Assembly: GCF_007991635.1 (NCBI RefSeq)
Contig: NZ_BJYS01000001.1
Span: forward strand, 248,001 to 312,000
Source: Adhaeribacter aerolatus
Lineage (GTDB): Bacteria; Bacteroidota; Bacteroidia; Cytophagales; Hymenobacteraceae
Direction of reading: 5' to 3'
DNA: 64,000 nt
Position numbers and translations under genes: made by a program. Shown here piece by piece: positions 7,591 to 28,876 of the stretch (positions within the stretch are counted from its first letter, which is position 1; the number at the start of each line of letters is the position of its first letter). The notes under the pieces are model-generated. The model saw only the letters and a list, made by a program, of their open reading frames with translations, did no database searches and had not been told where the DNA came from.

Positions 7591-9234
7591 TTGAAAAGGA
7601 GAAATTTTATTCAATTAGCTTCGATGGGCGTTGGGGGCCTGGCACTGTCGCATATTCCGGTTTTCGGCAACCCGATTTCACCGGAAGTGGCACTGGAACC
7701 GATAGATGTGGCCCTTAAAAAACGGCTCGCCGATGCTGCCCTGAATGCTGCCAAATCCCAGGGCGCTACTTACGCCGATGTTCGCATTGGCCGGTACTTG
7801 CAGCAATATATTTTTACCCGCGAGAAACAAGTACAAAATATTGTAAACGCCGAATCTTACGGAGTGGGCATCCGGGTAATTGCCAACGGGACCTGGGGCT
7901 TTGCTGCCACCAACAACGTAACCGAAGCCGGACTTGCCCAGGCAGCCTCCCAGGCTATCGCTATTGCTAAAGCCAATGCCCGTTACCAGCAAGAGCCGGT
8001 ACAACTGGCTCCCGTAAAAGGGATAGGCGAAGTTTCCTGGCGAACGCCCATTGTGCAGAATGCATTTGAGGTGCCGGTAGCCGAAAAGGCAGACTTATTG
8101 TTAGCTGCCAATGCCAAGGCTTTAGAGAACGGTGCCAGTTTTATTAACACTGCTCTTTTTCAGATAAACGAACAAAAGTATTTTGCTTCTACCGAGGGTT
8201 CTTACATTGATCAGGACATACACCGGATTTGGCCTACCTTCTCGGTATCGGCAGTAGACCGGTCGACCGGTAAATTCCGGAGCCGGGAAGCCCTGAGCGC
8301 CCCCATGGGTATGGGTTACGAATACCTGAGCAAACCAGGTCCAAAAATCGCCGGTCCGGCCGGCACTGGTTTGCAAGGCTATAACAAATACTACGATATT
8401 CTGGAAGATGCTGTCCTGGCGGCCAAACAAGCCAAAGCCAAAATCACGGCCAAATCAGTACAACCGGGTAAATACGACTTGGTGCTTGATCCAAACCACC
8501 TGGGCTTAACCATCCACGAATCGGTGGGCCACCCCCTGGAACTGGATCGGGTTTTGGGTTACGAGGCAAATTATGCAGGTACTTCCTTTGCTACCCTGGA
8601 TAAGTGGAAAACCAAAAACTTTAAATACGGCTCTAAACAGGTTAACATTTTTGCCGATAAAACCCAGCCGGGTTCTTTGGGCTACGTGGCATACGACGAC
8701 GAAGGCGTAAAAACCAAACGCTGGGATTTAATTAAAGACGGGGTACTGGTAAACTACCAGGCAATCCGCGATCAAGCGCATATTATTGGCGAGCCGGAAT
8801 CGCATGGTTGCTGCTACGCCGACCACTGGAGTTCAGTGCAGTTCCAGCGCATGGCCAACATTTCGCTGGCGCCGGGTAAAACCAAACTATCCGTAGACGA
8901 CATGATTAAAAATGTAGACAAAGGAATTTACATTTCCGGCCGTGGCTCTTTTTCCATCGATCAGCAGCGCTATAATTTCCAGTTTGGCGGCACCGTGTTT
9001 TACGAGATTAGCAAAGGCAAAATTGTGGGTATGCTCGAAGATGTGGCTTACCAATCGAACACCCAGGAATTCTGGAATTCCTGCGCTGCCATTTGCGACG
9101 AAAGCGATTATCGAATGTTCGGTTCTTTCTTCGACGGTAAAGGCCAGCCTGCCCAGATTAGTGCGGTATCGCACGGCAGTGCTACAACCCGCTTTAATGG
9201 CGTAAACGTAATTAACACCGCCCGGAAAATATAA
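7591..9234 (+). CDS. TldD-family metallopeptidase with twin-arginine signal
   Basis: The 547-residue protein starts with TTG. Its N terminus (MKRRNFIQLASMGVGGLAL) is a twin-arginine signal: the RRNFIQ motif, a mild hydrophobic core, then FGNP. This makes the TTG start convincing and predicts export. The TldD metal motif HESVGHPLELDR lies near residue 309, followed by EANYAGTSF; late family motifs are GCCYADHW, GRGSFS and EDVAYQSN. TldD and TldE form a metalloprotease that in enterobacteria matures microcin B17 and helps degrade CcdA. TldE (PmbA-like) follows 136 bases downstream without a signal of its own. E. coli TldD is cytoplasmic, so the Tat signal is notable. Nothing is truncated. Confidence 0.92.
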   Translation: MKRRNFIQLASMGVGGLALSHIPVFGNPISPEVALEPIDVALKKRLADAALNAAKSQGATYADVRIGRYLQQYIFTREKQVQNIVNAESYGVGIRVIANGTWGFAATNNVTEAGLAQAASQAIAIAKANARYQQEPVQLAPVKGIGEVSWRTPIVQNAFEVPVAEKADLLLAANAKALENGASFINTALFQINEQKYFASTEGSYIDQDIHRIWPTFSVSAVDRSTGKFRSREALSAPMGMGYEYLSKPGPKIAGPAGTGLQGYNKYYDILEDAVLAAKQAKAKITAKSVQPGKYDLVLDPNHLGLTIHESVGHPLELDRVLGYEANYAGTSFATLDKWKTKNFKYGSKQVNIFADKTQPGSLGYVAYDDEGVKTKRWDLIKDGVLVNYQAIRDQAHIIGEPESHGCCYADHWSSVQFQRMANISLAPGKTKLSVDDMIKNVDKGIYISGRGSFSIDQQRYNFQFGGTVFYEISKGKIVGMLEDVAYQSNTQEFWNSCAAICDESDYRMFGSFFDGKGQPAQISAVSHGSATTRFNGVNVINTARKI

Positions 9235-9370
9235 TTTGTTGGGCCGATTATGCTAAACCCAGTTTAAATATTGGCCAAATAATAAAATACCGGTTTAGGC
9301 CGGATTAATTAAAGCATAAAAAGATTAAGAATGTTGGTGGACGGTAGCGCCCCGACTATCGAGAAATAAC

Positions 9371-10702
9371 ATGGCAATATTAACGAAAGATGAAGCCCAG
9401 GCCATCTTAAAAAAAGTACTGAGCTACTCCAAATCCGATGAATGTGAAGCAAGCCTGAGCGGATCGGTTGGCGGTAATATTAGGTATGCCCGTAACAGTG
9501 TTTCTACGAGTGGTATGAATGAAGATACCTCCTTATCTGTGGAATCGCGCTTTGGCAAACGCGCCGGAGTAGCTACTGTAAACGTATTCGACGAAGAATC
9601 GCTAAAAAAAGTAGTGCAGCGGGCCGAAGAAATTGCCCGTCTTGCCCCGGAAAACCCTGAATATATTCCATTTCTAGGCCCGCAGACTTATTTACCAGCA
9701 AACGCACATTTTGCTACTACGGCCAATATTAAACCTGAATTCCGGGCCGAAGTAGCCGGGAAAAGCATTGAACTGGCTAACGCCAAAGGGTTAACAGCAG
9801 CCGGCTTTCTGGAAGACTCGAGCGGTTTTAGTGCTACCATGAACAACAAAGGCTTGTTTAATTACGGACAGAACTCGGGCCTGACTTTTTCGGTAACGGT
9901 GCGCACCGCCGACGGCACGGGTTCTGGATATGCCACCCGCGATTTTAGTGATGCTTCAAAATTTGAAACGGCCGAACCATCGCAAGTGGCCATTGCCAAG
10001 GCCTTAGGCTCGGCCCAGGCCAAAGCCATTGAACCCGGCAAATACACCGTTATTATGGAACCTGCCGCCCTGGTAGCCAACACCGATGCCAGTTTGCTTG
10101 GGGCTTTGTTCAACAGCCTTTCGGCCAGGCCGGCTGATGAAGGCCGAAGCTTTCTGTCTAAAAAAGGTGGAGGGAATAAATTAGGTGAGAAATTGTTTGA
10201 CGAACGGATAACCGTTTATTCAGACCCAAACAACGCCGAAATACCTTCGCTTACCTGGGACGAGGATGGACGCCCGCGTGAAAAAATAACCTGGATTGAG
10301 AAAGGAGTAGTTAAAAACCTTTTTACTACCCGTTATTGGGCGCAAAAGCAAAATATTCAATCTATTCCTACTCCGGGTGGTTTTATTATGCTGGGCGGTA
10401 CCCAAAGCGTAGACGACATGATTAAATCAACGGACCGGGGTATATTGGTAACGCGCCTGTGGTACATCCGCCCCGTAGATCCGCAAACGCTGCTCTATAC
10501 CGGTCTTACCCGCGATGGTACTTTTTACATTGAAAACGGCAAAATCAAACATCCGGTAAAAAATTTCCGCTTCAACGAGAGCCCCATTATTATGCTGAAC
10601 AACCTGGAGGCGCTGGGCAAACCGGTACGGGTAGGCGGCAACCTAGTACCACCCATGAAAATTCGTGATTTTACCTTTACCAGTTTATCCGACGCTGTTT
10701 AA
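9371..10702 (+). CDS. TldE/PmbA-like partner of TldD
   Basis: The 443-residue protein of the TldD/PmbA family lacks both a signal peptide and an HExxxH-type motif, as expected for the TldE subunit. Family traits are the N-terminal repeat-like domain (RYARNSVSTSGMNEDTSLS near residue 35), AGVATVNVFDEE, and the C-terminal domain with PGKYTVIMEP near residue 220, DERITVYSDP and GILVTRLWYIR near residue 350. In the known complex both subunits are needed for peptidase activity, although only TldD holds the metal. Gene order and spacing indicate co-expression with the preceding gene. If TldD really leaves the cytoplasm, this protein would have to travel with it or work elsewhere. Confidence 0.9.
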   Translation: MAILTKDEAQAILKKVLSYSKSDECEASLSGSVGGNIRYARNSVSTSGMNEDTSLSVESRFGKRAGVATVNVFDEESLKKVVQRAEEIARLAPENPEYIPFLGPQTYLPANAHFATTANIKPEFRAEVAGKSIELANAKGLTAAGFLEDSSGFSATMNNKGLFNYGQNSGLTFSVTVRTADGTGSGYATRDFSDASKFETAEPSQVAIAKALGSAQAKAIEPGKYTVIMEPAALVANTDASLLGALFNSLSARPADEGRSFLSKKGGGNKLGEKLFDERITVYSDPNNAEIPSLTWDEDGRPREKITWIEKGVVKNLFTTRYWAQKQNIQSIPTPGGFIMLGGTQSVDDMIKSTDRGILVTRLWYIRPVDPQTLLYTGLTRDGTFYIENGKIKHPVKNFRFNESPIIMLNNLEALGKPVRVGGNLVPPMKIRDFTFTSLSDAV

Positions 10703-21871: not shown

Positions 21872-21875
21872 CTCC

Positions 21876-21988
21876 ACTTATCAAGAAAGACCGAGGGATA
21901 TGGCCCGCTGAAGTCTTAGCAACCCTGGCAAGCAGGGTGCTACTTCCATCCCGCAAACGGCGCACGGCCGTGGGAAAGATGAGATAAA
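21876..21988 (+). promoter_or_regulatory. SAM-I (S-box) riboswitch
   Basis: The leader carries the SAM-I core in order: P1 strand CTTATC, AAGA, the kink-turn part GAGGGA, GGCCC, GCTGAAG, GCAACCC, the P3 pair CCCTG/CAGGG, GTGCTAcTTCC, a third stem with a CGCACGG region, and the closing GAAAGATGAG followed by the P1 partner GATAA (21983-21987). It lies 94 bases upstream of metH on the same strand. S-box RNAs bind S-adenosylmethionine and shut down methionine synthesis genes, so metH, and metF if co-transcribed, should be off when SAM is plentiful. Confidence 0.95.
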
Positions 21989-22081: not shown

Positions 22082-25000
22082 ATGACTACAATTGCTACCG
22101 AGAGCGCCATTACGCGCATCGAAGAAGAAATTAAAAAACGCATTTTGGTGCTGGATGGCGCCATGGGTACCATGATTCAGCAGTACAAGCTGGAAGAGGC
22201 CGACTACCGGGGCGAGCGCTTTAAAGATTATCCATCGGACCTGAAAGGCAACAACGATTTGCTGTCGCTCACGCAACCGCACATTATTAAAGAAATTCAC
22301 AGCCAATATTTTGCGGCCGGGGCGGATATTGCCGAGACCAACACCTTTAGCGCTACCACTATTGGTATGGCCGATTATGGCATGGAAAGTCTGGCGTACG
22401 AGCTGAATTACGAATCGGCGCGGATTGCGCGGGAGGCCGCCGATGAATTTACCGCCCGCGAACCCCACAAGCCCCGCTTTGTAGCCGGTGCCATGGGACC
22501 AACCAACCGTACCGCCTCTATGTCGCCGGACGTAAACAACCCGGCTTACCGGGCTATTACCTACGACGATCTGGTCATTGCTTATACCGAGCAAATAGAA
22601 GGTCTGGTAGATGGAGGAGTAGATGCGTTGTTAGTGGAAACCATTTTCGATACGCTGAACGCTAAGGCCGCTTTATTTGCCATCGACCAATATTCGCAGC
22701 GCACCGGCAAGCGCCTGCCCATTATGGTATCGGGTACGATTACCGATGCCAGCGGTCGGACGCTTTCGGGCCAGACAGTAGAAGCCTTTTTATATTCTAT
22801 TTCGCATTTGCCTTTACTCAGTGTGGGCTTGAACTGTGCTTTGGGAGCAAAACAATTGCGTCCGCATATTCAGTCTTTGTCTAAGGCCTCTAAGTTTTAC
22901 GTGAGCGCTTACCCCAACGCGGGTTTACCCAATGCGTTTGGCGAGTACGACGAAAGTCCGGAGCAAATGGGGGCACACATCCGCGACTTTCTGGAGCACA
23001 ACTTTGTAAATATTGTGGGTGGTTGTTGTGGTACCACGCCGCCGCACATTAAAGAAATTGCCCGGATTGCCGCCGAATATTCGCCGCGGCAAAAACCACA
23101 ATTACCGGCTGTTCCTAAATATTCCGGTTTAGAGCCTTTAACCATTTTCGAAGGTTCTACCTTTATTAATATCGGCGAACGTACCAACGTAACCGGTTCC
23201 AAAAAATTCGCCCGGCTGATTCTGAACGATAATTACGACGAGGCCCTCTCCATCGCCCGCGAGCAGGTAGAAAACGGCGCCCAGATTATCGACATCAACA
23301 TGGACGAAGGCATGCTCGATTCTGAGAAAGCCATGACGCACTTCCTGAACCTGATTGCTTCGGAGCCCGATATTTCGCGTGTACCCGTCATGATTGACTC
23401 TTCTAAATGGAGCGTGATTGAAGCCGGTTTAAAATGTGTGCAGGGCAAGTGTATTGTAAACTCCATCAGCTTAAAAGAAGGCGAAGAAAAATTTAAAGAA
23501 GTAGCCCGCAAAGTGCGCAGTTACGGTGCCGCTGTAGTGGTAATGGCATTCGACGAGCAAGGGCAGGCCGATAACTACGAGCGTCGCACCGAGATATGCG
23601 CCCGCGCTTACAAAATATTAACTGAAGAAGTTGGTTTTGCGCCTGAAGACATCATTTTCGACCCGAATATATTAACCGTAGCCACCGGCATTGAAGAACA
23701 TAATAATTATGCGGTCGATTTTATCCGGGCAACGCAGTGGATTAAAGAAAATTTACCGGGCGTAAAAGTAAGCGGCGGCGTAAGTAATATTTCATTCTCG
23801 TTCCGGGGTAACGATACCGTGCGCGAAGCGATGCACTCGGCTTTCCTGTACCATGCCATTAAAGCTGGTCTGGATATGGGTATTGTAAATGCCGGCCAGA
23901 TTGAGGTATACGAAGAAATACCGAAAGACCTGTTGGAGCGCGTAGAAGACGTGCTGCTAAACCGCCGTCCGGATGCCACCGAACGCTTACTGGAATTTGC
24001 CGAGCAGGTAAAAAACAAAGGCAAAGTAGTAGTAAAAGACGAAGCCTGGCGGGACGCACCCGTGCAGGAACGACTCACCCACTCTTTGGTAAAAGGCATC
24101 ACAGACTATATTGAAATAGACATTGAAGAAGCCCGCCAGCAGGCCGAAAAACCTTTGCACGTAATTGAAGGCCCTTTAATGACCGGCATGAACGTGGTAG
24201 GCGATTTGTTCGGTGAGGGTAAAATGTTTTTGCCACAGGTAGTAAAAAGCGCCCGCGTCATGAAAAAAGCGGTGGCTTATTTATTGCCGTTTATCGAAGC
24301 CGAAAAACAACCCGGCGATGAAAGCAAAAACGCTGGTAAGGTATTATTAGCCACGGTAAAAGGCGACGTACACGATATTGGTAAAAATATTGTGGGCGTG
24401 GTACTGGCCTGTAATAACTACGAAATTGTTGATTTGGGCGTAATGGTGCCTACCGATAAAATATTGCAAACCGCCATCGAAATTGGGGCCGATGTAATTG
24501 GCGTGAGTGGTTTAATTACCCCATCGCTCGACGAAATGGTGGGTGTAGCCAAAGAAATGGAACGCCTTAAATTTACCATTCCGTTACTCATTGGCGGGGC
24601 CACTACTTCCAAAGCTCACACGGCTGTTAAAATAGACCAGAATTACAGTGGGCCGGTGGTGCACGTGCTGGATGCTTCGCGGAGTGTACCGGTTGTCGGT
24701 AATTTATTACAGCCGGAACAAAAAGAAGAATACGCTAAGAAAATAAAAGCTGAATACGTGGAACTGCGCGAAAGCTACGCTAACCGCAAAAAAGACCGTA
24801 ATTATTTAAGCTTAGAAGCCGCCCGCGCGAATAAATTTAAAATCGACTGGTCGCCAGCCGAAGTTTATACGCCTAAGTTTATTGGCACCAAAGTATTTGA
24901 AGATTACCCATTGAGCGAAATTCAGAATTATATCGACTGGACACCCTTCTTCCAGGCCTGGGAACTACACGGAAAATATCCGAAAATATTAACCGACGAA

Positions 25001-25786
25001 GTAGTAGGTGCCGAAGCTACCCGCTTGTTGCAGGATGCGCAGGTAATGCTGAAGCAAATCGTGAAGGAAAAATGGCTGAAAGCCCGCGCCGCCATTGGTA
25101 TTTATCCGGCCAATACCGTTAACCACGACGATATTGAGGTTTACGCAGACCGCGAACATAGCCAATTGCTAACTACATTCCGGACGTTGCGACAGCAGGG
25201 CCAGAAAGGTCAGAATATACCCAATATTGCCTTGGCAGATTTTGTAGCGCCCAAAGAAAGTGGCGTTGGCGATTATATGGGGGCATTCGCCGTAACAGCC
25301 GGTATCGGCATCGATGATATTATCAAGAAATACGAAGCCGACCACGACGATTACCACAGCATCATGATTAAAGCCCTAGCTGACCGTTTAGCCGAAGCAT
25401 TTGCTGAATTGCTGCACGAGCGGGTACGCCGGGAATTCTGGGGTTACGCGCCGGAAGAGCAATTCAGCAACGATGATTTAATTAAGGAAGAATACCAGGG
25501 CATTCGTCCGGCACCCGGTTACCCGGCCTGTCCGGAACATACCGAGAAAAAGACCATATTCCAGTTGCTGAACGCCGAAAAAAATACCGGTATCACCTTA
25601 ACCGACAGCATGGCCATGTACCCAACAGCTGCCGTATCCGGTTTCTATTTTGCGCACCCCAAAGCCCGTTATTTTGGCTTAGGCAAAATAAACAAAGACC
25701 AGGTAGAAAGCTACGCCCAACGCAAAGGGTTTACAGTAGAAGAAGCCGAACGCTGGCTGTCGCCGAACTTGGGGTACGATGCTTAA
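22082..25786 (+). CDS. metH: Cobalamin-dependent methionine synthase
   Basis: MetH transfers a methyl group from methyltetrahydrofolate through cobalamin to homocysteine in the cytoplasm. At 1234 residues all modules are present: the homocysteine domain (1-335; [12 protein letters not shown], zinc cysteines in GLNCALG and GGCCGTTPP), the pterin-binding domain (about 355-620; [14 protein letters not shown]), the cap (about 655-750), the cobalamin domain with axial ligand His764 in GDVHDIGKN, and the C-terminal SAM-binding reactivation domain (about 910-1230; [15 protein letters not shown]). Expression should be SAM-repressed through the riboswitch upstream. metF lies 97 bases downstream and makes its methyl-folate substrate. 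Confidence 0.98.
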
Positions 25787-25883: not shown

Positions 25884-26837
25884 ATGAAAGTAACCGAACA
25901 TATAAAAAACGCGAGTAGCACTTTATTTTCTTTCGAAATATTACCCCCGGTAAAAGGCACCAGCATCCAATCGATTTACGATGGCATCGACCCCTTAATG
26001 GAGTTTAAGCCGCCATTTATTAACGTAACCTATCACCGCGAAGAATACGTGTTTAAAGAGCGCGGTAACGGTTTGCTGGAGAAAATATCTATCCGGAAAC
26101 GGCCGGGTACGGTGGGTATTTGTTCGGCAATTATGAATAAGTACAAGGTAGATGCCGTGCCACATATTATTTGCGGTGGCTTTACCAAAGAAGAAACCGA
26201 AAATGCCCTTATCGACCTAAACTTCCTGGGCATTGATAATGTGCTGGTGCTGCGCGGCGATTCTATTAAAACCGAATCGACTTTCCGGCCGCACCCCGAT
26301 GGACATGCCTACGCCTGCGATTTGCTGCAGCACGTGGTAAGCATGAACCACGGCAAATACCTCGACGAAGATATTGCCAATCCGCTGCCGACGAATTTTT
26401 GCCCCGGCGTGGCGGGTTATCCGGAAAAACACGCCGAAGCTCCGAACCTGGCTACTGACCTGAAATATTTAAAAAGGAAGGTAGACATGGGCGCTGAATA
26501 CATCATCACGCAAATGTTTTTCGACAACAAAAAATATTGTGATTTTGTAAAAGCCTGCCGCGAAATCGGGATTAACGTGCCCATTATTCCAGGTATTAAG
26601 CCGCTCACCACTAAAAACCAGTTGAAATTATTACCTAATTTATTTCACATCGATTTTCCGGATGATTTGGTCGATGCCATCGAAGCGGCCACTACCCCGC
26701 AAGCCGTAAGGCAGATTGGCATTGAATGGACTATTCAGCAATCGAAAGAACTAATACAATTTGGGGTACCCTGCCTGCACTTTTATACCATGAGTAAATC
26801 CGATGCAGTGGTGCAGATTGCCAAAGCAGTTTTTTAA
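25884..26837 (+). CDS. metF: 5,10-methylenetetrahydrofolate reductase
   Basis: MetF is a cytoplasmic flavoprotein that reduces methylene-THF to methyl-THF, the methyl donor for MetH. The 317-residue protein has the TIM-barrel landmarks FSFEILPPVKG at residue 13 (catalytic glutamate), FINVTYHREE near 47, VPHIICGGFT near 93, VLVLRGDS near 118, GAEYIITQMFFDN near 203 and VPIIPGIKPLT near 233. Length is typical (290-320). It is probably in one transcript with metH, under the SAM riboswitch. No defects are visible. Confidence 0.97.
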   Translation: MKVTEHIKNASSTLFSFEILPPVKGTSIQSIYDGIDPLMEFKPPFINVTYHREEYVFKERGNGLLEKISIRKRPGTVGICSAIMNKYKVDAVPHIICGGFTKEETENALIDLNFLGIDNVLVLRGDSIKTESTFRPHPDGHAYACDLLQHVVSMNHGKYLDEDIANPLPTNFCPGVAGYPEKHAEAPNLATDLKYLKRKVDMGAEYIITQMFFDNKKYCDFVKACREIGINVPIIPGIKPLTTKNQLKLLPNLFHIDFPDDLVDAIEAATTPQAVRQIGIEWTIQQSKELIQFGVPCLHFYTMSKSDAVVQIAKAVF

Positions 26838-26848
26838 ATAAATATTAT

Positions 26849-26894
26849 TATCTTTGCCTAATCAATAGCGACCTTGCTGCTGTTGGTAGGCAAA
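26849..26894 (+). promoter_or_regulatory. Promoter-like box and inverted repeat after metF
   Basis: TATCTTTG (26849-26856) fits the TAnnTTTG -7 box; the nearest TTG is 28 bases upstream, too far for a normal -33 box. TTTGCCTA (26853-26860) is perfectly mirrored by TAGGCAAA (26887-26894). This could be an operator covering the start site of the following leader, or a weak metF terminator. Both readings are tentative. Confidence 0.35.
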
Positions 26895-27039
26895 GGTTAT
26901 TTTAACAAGGCTAAACTTTTCTTAAGATAACCGTATTAGAATCAAGATTATAAGGTAAAGACAACACAGCCCTGATTAATTCCGGCACTTTACCTATTGG
27001 CTTCGGCCATCATTATTGCCTTAGTAAACTTTTAATACA

Positions 27040-27138
27040 ATGAAAAAGAACAACGTGCAACCAGACTTAATCCGGCTCTCCAGAAAGGGTATCTACACCA
27101 CCGGCCTGACTTCTGCTTGTTGTTGCTGTTGTCTTTAA
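27040..27138 (+). CDS. Poly-cysteine leader peptide
   Basis: An ATG at 27040 opens a 32-codon frame: MKKNNVQPDLIRLSRKG, then IYTTGLTSACCCCCL and TAA (27136-27138). Five cysteine codons in a row (TGT TGT TGC TGT TGT) sit at codons 27-31, one codon before the last. No other gene overlaps it. The AT-rich stretch before the ATG (AACTTTTAATACA) is typical of starts here. The design, a short peptide with a run of one amino acid near its end followed by alternative hairpins and a biosynthetic or redox gene, is that of an attenuation leader; poly-Cys leaders that sense cysteine are known in mycobacteria. Downstream are a ferredoxin-NADP reductase and a ferredoxin, which could feed electrons to sulfite reduction. 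A RiPP precursor is the alternative, but no modifying enzyme is near. Confidence 0.72.
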   Translation: MKKNNVQPDLIRLSRKGIYTTGLTSACCCCCL

Positions 27139-27157
27139 TCTCCGCTGCCTTTTGGTA

Positions 27158-27335
27158 TTAGCTTCTCGCCCGAGGCTAAATCTTACAAACTAAGTTTTAC
27201 CTTTTATTGCTGTACTCACCGGTTACCCCGGGGGTAAAACCCGTTTGTATATTTATCTGCTTTGCGGCAATTGCTGCACCAATTGGTAACATCTCCTGCT
27301 GTTTCTTTGTTTTACCTGTGAATTTAGCTCACGGG
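27158..27335 (+). promoter_or_regulatory. Structured attenuator-like leader RNA
   Basis: Three hairpins follow the leader peptide. H1 is TTAGC/GCTAA with inner CTCG/CGAG (27158-27179), starting 20 bases after the stop codon. H2: GTTTTACC (27194-27201) pairs with GGTAAAAC (27233-27240), and competes with GGTTACCCC (27221-27229) pairing to GGGGTAAAACC (27231-27241). H3 is CCTGTGA/TCACGGG (27315-27335), followed by a T-rich stretch before the reductase start. A second GTTTTACC at 27309-27316 can also claim GGTAAAAC and overlaps the 5' arm of H3. Several mutually exclusive pairings on one short leader support a switch. Confidence 0.5.
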
Positions 27336-27372
27336 CTATTTCTATAAATTTTAATATTAATATTTCTTAAAA

Positions 27373-28383
27373 ATGAATATTCTATCAACTGATATATGCA
27401 TTATCGGGGCCGGGCCGGTTGGTCTGTTTGCCGTTTTTGAAGCTGGTTTATTGAAGATGCGCTGCCACGTAGTAGACGCCCTGGCCCAGACCGGCGGCCA
27501 GCTTTCTGAAATTTATCCTAAAAAGCCAATCTACGATATTCCGGGATTCCCGGAAGTTTTGGCTGGCGATCTGGTGAAAAATCTAGAAAAACAAATAGAA
27601 CCCTTTAAGCCTACTTTTACCTTAGGCGAACGCGTAGAGCGTTTTACCCGCCTCGACGATGGTTCTTTTATTGTATATACCGTGGCTGGAACCGAAATTA
27701 GCTGCAAGATTATCGTTATCGCCGCCGGCTTAGGGTCCTTCGAACCGCGCAAACCTGCCATTGAGCACCTGGCCCTGTACGAAGGCAAAGGCGTTAATTA
27801 CATGATTCTGGATCCTGAGCATTATCGCGACAAACGCGTGGTTATTGCCGGCGGCGGCGACTCCGCTTTGGACTGGACAATTTTCCTGGCGAATGTGGCC
27901 AAAGAAGTTACTTTAGTGCACCGGGGTACTACTTTCCGGGGTGTACCCGAATCGGCGGAAAAAGTACAGCACCTGGCCGAAGCCGGTAAAATTAAATTAT
28001 TGCTGAAATCTAATGTGGTAGGCGTAAGCGGCGAAGATAAATTGGAAGCCGTTACTATTTCGTTCAACAACGAAGAAGATGTAGTTCAGGAGACTGATTA
28101 TTTTATTCCGCTTTTCGGGCTAACGCCAAAATTGGGGCCGCTGGAAGACTGGGATTTGGAATTGCAGGATGGCGCCATTGTGGTAAATACCTTCGATTAT
28201 TCTACCAGTATAGAAGGCGTGTACGCCATCGGCGATATTAATACCTATCCGGGTAAACTGAAACTTATTTTGTGCGGTTTCCACGAAGCCGCCCTGATGG
28301 CCCAAAGTGCCTACAAATATCTGAATCCAGATAAAAAATTCACGCTGAAATATACTACTGTGAACGGGGTGCCAACTTTATAA
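27373..28383 (+). CDS. Thioredoxin-reductase-like ferredoxin-NADP reductase
   Basis: This 336-residue flavoprotein of the type 2 FNR group moves electrons between NADPH and ferredoxin in the cytoplasm. The FAD site is IIGAGPVGLFAVFEAG near residue 10, with QTGGQLSEIYPKKPIYDIPG near 40; the NADPH site is VVIAGGGDSALDW near 155, and GVYAIGDINTYPG near 276 closes the FAD site. The CxxC disulfide of true thioredoxin reductases is absent, which separates FNR from TrxB. The 2Fe-2S ferredoxin downstream is the natural partner. A 234-base structured leader and the poly-Cys peptide precede it. Confidence 0.92.
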   Translation: MNILSTDICIIGAGPVGLFAVFEAGLLKMRCHVVDALAQTGGQLSEIYPKKPIYDIPGFPEVLAGDLVKNLEKQIEPFKPTFTLGERVERFTRLDDGSFIVYTVAGTEISCKIIVIAAGLGSFEPRKPAIEHLALYEGKGVNYMILDPEHYRDKRVVIAGGGDSALDWTIFLANVAKEVTLVHRGTTFRGVPESAEKVQHLAEAGKIKLLLKSNVVGVSGEDKLEAVTISFNNEEDVVQETDYFIPLFGLTPKLGPLEDWDLELQDGAIVVNTFDYSTSIEGVYAIGDINTYPGKLKLILCGFHEAALMAQSAYKYLNPDKKFTLKYTTVNGVPTL

Positions 28384-28555: not shown

Positions 28556-28876
28556 ATGAATGATATAAAAATATATGTACAGGAACCATCGGGCGATAAA
28601 ACCCCGGTGGATGCGCCTACCGATATGGGCCTGAGTTTGATGGAAGTATTAAAAGCCAGCGGTTATCCCATTGCAGCTACCTGCGGCGGTATGGCTTTGT
28701 GCGCTACCTGCCACATAGAAGTACTCAGCGACCACGAATTGCCACCGCCTTCCGACGATGAAGGCTATATGCTGGATAGCTTGCCCGCCGTTACCGATAA
28801 TAGTCGCTTATCGTGCCAGGTTAGGTTAACGCCCGAATTAGACGAACTGGTGGTAAAACTGGGAGCCGGCGATTAG
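28556..28876 (+). CDS. 2Fe-2S ferredoxin
   Basis: The 106-residue ferredoxin is of the adrenodoxin type. Cluster ligands are Cys43, Cys49, Cys52 (CGGMALCATCH) and Cys87 (LSCQVRL). This one-electron carrier probably receives electrons from the reductase 170 bases upstream. It is acidic throughout (SDDEGYMLD, ELDELVVKLGAGD), as is usual for electron-carrier docking. A strong terminator follows, so the two genes end one transcription unit. Confidence 0.95.
   Translation: MNDIKIYVQEPSGDKTPVDAPTDMGLSLMEVLKASGYPIAATCGGMALCATCHIEVLSDHELPPPSDDEGYMLDSLPAVTDNSRLSCQVRLTPELDELVVKLGAGD

Follow-up and report, generated by a model that had tools for sequence, protein, structure and literature searches.

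Candidate cysteine-codon leader peptides upstream of the ferredoxin-NADP reductase of Adhaeribacter and of sulfur metabolism genes in Bacteroidota

The ferredoxin-NADP reductase and ferredoxin genes of Adhaeribacter (Hymenobacteraceae, Bacteroidota) are very probably attenuated by a leader peptide with a run of cysteine codons, and this leader is a predicted member of a poly-Cys leader regulon of Bacteroidota. The ORF, its conservation, the other members of the regulon and a conserved last hairpin before the reductase gene are read directly from the sequences. The leader lies in a window of 64,000 nucleotides (the whole stretch of DNA analysed), within a row of genes that starts with a SAM-I riboswitch:

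21875-21985, + strand: SAM-I riboswitch (RF00162) before metH, at the start of the gene row
22082-25786, + strand: metH
25884-26837, + strand: metF, directly 5' of the leader and the reductase in three species
27040-27138, + strand: leader ORF, MKKNNVQPDLIRLSRKGIYTTGLTSACCCCCL and stop; same length and frame in A. rhizoryzae and MAG RYN_302
27118-27132, + strand: five successive Cys codons TGTTGTTGCTGTTGT, the proposed sensor; codons identical in three close relatives
27373-28383, + strand: ferredoxin-NADP reductase with a thioredoxin-reductase-like fold, the proposed regulated gene
28556-28876, + strand: 2Fe-2S ferredoxin of the adrenodoxin/putidaredoxin type

The leader ORF has 32 codons, starts with the ATG at 27040 and ends with SACCCCCL before the TAA at 27136-27138. 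An earlier note on this DNA had described such an ORF, and direct reading shows all the coordinates that it gave to be right. The final cysteine stands one residue before the stop, the same placement as in the metY leaders discussed below. The spacer between the leader ORF and the ferredoxin-NADP reductase gene is 234 nt long. The earlier note had also named the reductase and the ferredoxin as the regulated genes; the identity of the reductase is confirmed by its match to PDB 5ygq (E 4e-102). The leader itself has no Rfam match, and a scan of 26800-27420 found no SAM-I aptamer directly 5' of the ATG.

A hairpin of 9-13 bp (CTTTGCCTA...TAGGCAAAG, then TTATTTT) lies 3' of metF at 26848-26905. 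It overlaps a promoter-like TAnnTTTG motif, which three species share.

Among named organisms, A. rhizoryzae is the nearest relative, with 97% identity of the reductase. The leader peptide is 91% identical on the amino acid level in A. rhizoryzae and 66-68% identical in MAG RYN_302. In these two close relatives its length, its frame and the five Cys codons are unchanged, and the surrounding RNA is gap-rich. The synonymous and non-synonymous differences per site (pS and pN) for pairs of reductase leaders are 0.33 vs 0.20, 0.37 vs 0.23 and 0.11 vs 0.06, and pS exceeds pN in every leader pair with more than six changes, all these contrasts being based on few sites. Four further congeners have a more distant reductase (~66% identity) in a different neighbourhood, with no metF adjoining. 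There the reductase gene is preceded by unrelated short peptides with C-terminal cysteines, MTDFSPTPFLTFKIICCS, MKNFLIISFLQTNNCCCCS, MLDFSPIPFLTFKIICCS and MNNFWLLPLLHSAIHCCCS, the distance from the leader stop to the reductase is 166-173 nt, and a perfect Bacteroidota-type TAnnTTTG element occurs 5' of the leader in each of the four genomes. In sum, a leader ending in cysteine stands before the reductase in all seven congeners that have this gene, the weaker cases being among the four distant ones, two of which have just two Cys codons and one three. Regulation of metF as the partner of the leader was considered and rejected, as these four congeners keep the Cys leader before the reductase without metF.

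In other genera, none of 59 reductase upstream regions contains an ORF reaching four Cys (ATG ORF of 8-60 aa with at least four Cys in the last 12 residues, at most 450 nt 5' of the gene); such ORFs arise in 5 of 1180 shuffles of the reductase upstream regions. A sequence search with the 32-aa peptide alone gave only two relatives above noise. The class was therefore recovered through Cys codon patterns and gene anchors rather than through peptide similarity. The weak matches of the peptide search in other genera were rejected, being coding DNA read out of frame or on the antisense strand.

Every stretch of four Cys codons in the Adhaeribacter genome was collected and then read in frame. Repeats of the TGCTGTTG type are common: there are 86 matches to (TGY)4, most of them within or antisense to genes. 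One possibility is that the leader is a chance ORF on a TGY-rich repeat. Intergenic short ATG ORFs with at least four consecutive cysteines, located close 5' of a gene on the same strand, were found before metY, sir, the rhodanese-cysH genes, the reductase and a TonB receptor gene. Here metY encodes O-acetylhomoserine sulfhydrylase and is followed by metX and hom, the rhodanese gene has cysH after it, and the TonB receptor gene adjoins that of an Rrf2-type regulator. The sulfite reductase gene (contig 25) is preceded by two tandem Cys-rich leaders, the second of them more upstream, and the tandem arrangement recurs in several relatives. A further TonB-receptor leader is situated on contig 37, ~880 nt from the gene, and two or three other intergenic CCCC ORFs could not be assigned to a gene. 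With a Cys leader in seven of seven congeners and with leaders before metY, sir and the cysH cluster, the cysteine-responsive leader proposed in the earlier note is strongly supported as a prediction.

The two TonB-receptor leaders (contig 54, around 8925-9032 of the locus analysed, and contig 37) share the pattern MKxxxLNxRPxYxxAR...CCCC and have a similar upstream element TTTATTTGTCTA...CTATAG. The ORF of cysC (adenylylsulfate kinase, 8838-9443 of its own locus) ends in RIKLCCC shortly before cysD, either by chance or as a built-in leader.

The leaders before metY and sir are widespread within the class. Upstream of metY, an ATG ORF with at least three Cys was found in 33 of 40 loci (12 of 800 shuffles), and at least four Cys within the last 12 residues in 28 of 40 (1 of 800); upstream of sir the respective numbers are 12 of 15 loci (9 of 300 shuffles) and 10 of 15 (1 of 300); since the loci are related, these counts should not be read as independent events. 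Beyond this class the metY result no longer holds: in other classes of the phylum, a Cys leader was found in one of 17 loci. The Cys runs contain in-frame interruptions, for example CCMCICCPCC and CMCCMALA, and therefore a simple DNA repeat is excluded. Together with the shuffle controls, the control genes and the conservation across genera, these interrupted runs make a chance origin of the leader extremely unlikely.

In the metY leaders, the share of cysteine is 33% over the last 15 residues, compared with 0.5% in the bodies. The peptide ends within two residues of the last Cys in 31 of 35 cases. Methionine is approximately fourfold enriched beside the Cys run (8.6% in the tails vs 2.1%). 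The final residue of metY leaders is often tryptophan, as in CCCCCW. One could suppose that the ORF serves to make its peptide, a small Cys-rich protein binding metals or involved in redox reactions. Indeed, copper, zinc or Fe-S clusters are conceivable ligands of peptides with Cys runs, and other bacteria have upstream ORFs that respond to copper (PMC9426467). However, the bodies of the leaders diverge freely and cannot be aligned between genes, or even between congeners at one gene, whereas the cysteines beside the stop codon are kept. Besides, sulfur genes repeatedly have these ORFs as their 5' leaders. Thus a functional peptide is quite improbable, and regulation by the cysteine codons is the preferred explanation.

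An Rfam scan of the metY and sir loci identified SAM-I aptamers before 38 metY and 3 sir genes. The aptamers of the metY module are full RF00162 structures scoring 61-87 bits, above the gathering score. In all 41 loci an ATG ORF starts 6-14 nt (usually 7-9 nt) past the 3' end of the aptamer, and 38 of these 41 ORFs end in CC or a longer run of cysteines. The metY leaders are not leaderless, the ATG being preceded by the ~110-nt aptamer. Sixty genomes of the class were sampled separately; there, no Cys-run ORF was found after aptamers upstream of metH or other transsulfuration genes, whereas the aptamers before metY, as well as one before a TonB receptor gene on contig 24 of its genome, do have such an ORF. 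The association with the SAM riboswitch and the membership of the reductase leader in a regulon go beyond the earlier note.

As the distance between the aptamer and the ATG is constant, the aptamer may act on translation initiation of the metY leader, and SAM probably decides whether this leader gets translated at all. A more specific model of the metY module of Bacteroidota, for which we see about equal grounds for belief and for doubt, is that the SAM-I aptamer controls the access of ribosomes to the poly-Cys leader. The untranslated region would then test for low SAM first and for low Cys-tRNA second. The operon in the window would split these two inputs, with the SAM riboswitch placed at metH and the Cys leader at the reductase gene. 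The metY element would operate as an AND gate provided that the gene is off when its leader is not translated.

The RNA between the leader and the reductase gene contains several candidate regulatory structures:

27157-27181, + strand: first hairpin 3' of the leader (ATTAGC...GCTAAAT); the prediction is limited to the window, and the sequences of the relatives do not conserve it
27194-27201, + strand: segment A, GTTTTACC, exact
27233-27240, + strand: segment B, GGTAAAAC, complementary to A and C; only wobble changes in the relatives
27309-27316, + strand: segment C, GTTTTACC, the other partner of B; shares positions with the foot of the last hairpin
27315-27335, + strand: hairpin CCTGTGAATTTAGCTCACGGG resembling a terminator, with U-rich CTATTTCTATAAATTTT after it; three species keep the stem

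The complementarity of segments A and C to B, pointed out in the earlier note, is exact, and all three segments occur at corresponding positions in both close relatives. A search of relatives for the Cys run and the complementary segments upstream of the reductase, suggested there as a test, found both conserved. Dinucleotide shuffles of the 234-nt spacer produce an 8-mer that has two complementary partners in 0.6% of cases. For the A:B pairing, the predicted probability is 0.99 in two of the species and 0.61 in the remaining one. The alternative B:C pairing is 8-9 kcal/mol less favourable in two species and of equal stability in the third. The competing GGTTACCCC helix, also part of the originally proposed switch, is present in the window and broken in both relatives (GGCTGCACC; CTAATAGCC), and it was rejected as not conserved. 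Folding that simulated a ribosome on the Cys codons or on the stop codon did not reveal a conserved stall-dependent switch. Thus the RNA switch is supported only in part: the close relatives keep segments A, B and C as well as the last hairpin, whereas the competing helix and a consistent response to stalling are not seen.

In the last hairpin, the pair 27321-27329 is A-U, G-U and G-C in the three species, the only homologs aligning well enough for counting of base pairs, and thus the pairing is preserved. The weak points of this hairpin are its length of just 7-9 bp and an interrupted U tract. The four other congeners have an unrelated hairpin at the corresponding place, clearest in three of them, and a hairpin with a U-rich tail precedes the reductase in most of the seven congeners. 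A clear intrinsic terminator was sought in the metY spacers and was not found. The median C-over-G skew of the spacers is 0.15 for the reductase and 0.17 for metY, compared to -0.09 in control upstream regions. This modest skew suggests that the spacers would suit Rho.

Transcriptional attenuation is the most likely mechanism, and both the hairpin and Rho are considered as the cause of the transcript end. We infer that the leader is translated, that transcription is the controlled step, and that the sign of the response is as follows. When charged tRNA-Cys is plentiful, the ribosome would pass the Cys run, reach the adjacent stop codon and leave. Transcription would then stop before the reductase gene, at the hairpin 27315-27335 and/or through Rho acting on the pyrimidine-rich spacer, which is then exposed. 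Under cysteine shortage, the ribosome would stall on the Cys codons, and the downstream RNA would fold or be shielded in a different way, so that the reductase and the ferredoxin are made.

The same cysteine sensor could act on translation, with the stalled ribosome unmasking the start region of the reductase gene. Such a mechanism agrees with the fact that the mycobacterial poly-Cys short ORFs are summarised in PMC9031893 as controlling translation of the downstream genes, and for one relative partial pairing of the reductase start region is predicted (probability of being unpaired 0.46). However, the start regions of the reductase and metY genes are AU-rich and predicted to be mostly open, and the spacers, at about 100-235 nt, are long. 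Translational attenuation is therefore a possible, although rather doubtful, alternative to transcriptional attenuation.

The electrons supplied by the reductase and ferredoxin in the stalled state would be used for sulfite reduction and/or reactivation of MetH. The supply of electrons to sulfite reduction is plausible, and reactivation of MetH, encoded in the same gene row, would be an equally good client of the reductase and ferredoxin.

Bacteroidota that have these leaders probably sense cysteine, and often SAM as well, while the message is being read. This points to codon-level attenuation of sulfur assimilation as a way in which Bacteroidota may sense cysteine, the whole regulon being predicted from sequence. 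The metY module would combine a metabolite riboswitch and an amino acid attenuator in series on one RNA, that is, it would be a two-input logic device. The ferredoxin-NADP reductase and ferredoxin would be tied to the cysteine supply, which gives a testable role for this widespread and functionally vague gene pair.

In the literature covered, open to readers without subscription, we found neither a cysteine leader in Bacteroidota nor one joined to a SAM riboswitch. The predicted family of poly-Cys leaders before sulfur genes of Bacteroidota thus appears to be previously unreported, and its most widespread form, that of metY, starts right after a SAM riboswitch. Leader-peptide attenuation was suggested before amino acid operons of Flavobacterium psychrophilum (PMC9723704), where the main text names no cysteine leader and no riboswitch coupling.

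The closest analogues are the poly-Cys short ORFs of mycobacteria, described as cysteine-responsive attenuators (Canestrari et al. 2020, Mol Microbiol, as cited in PMC13236596 and PMC9094748 and summarised in PMC9031893). According to these summaries, they are leaderless ORFs with consecutive Cys codons before operons, for which cysteine-dependent attenuation was proposed, similar to the situation described here. However, the present leaders come from another phylum, those of metY are not leaderless, as the aptamer comes first, and the regulated genes are metY, sir and the ferredoxin reductase gene, with coupling to the SAM riboswitch at metY. The upstream ORF uORFC-8-2, found only before cysS in Rhodobacterales, has two Cys codons at approximately positions 14-15 and a terminator with a U-run (PMC8632094). 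It also is a proposed ribosome-mediated attenuator with tandem Cys codons, but the genes downstream of the present leaders are those of the ferredoxin reductase, metY, sir and others, and not cysS.

As in the attenuation of trp and his operons, the leader contains consecutive codons for the end product, and hairpins lie between it and the gene. On the other hand, the antiterminator and terminator pair is only a candidate here, and there is no strong terminator with a U-tract before metY. Finally, the metY loci share the full aptamer with the usual SAM-I riboswitches (S-box, RF00162). However, the nearest feature downstream of the aptamer is neither a terminator nor the regulated gene: it is the poly-Cys leader ORF, located ~8 nt away.
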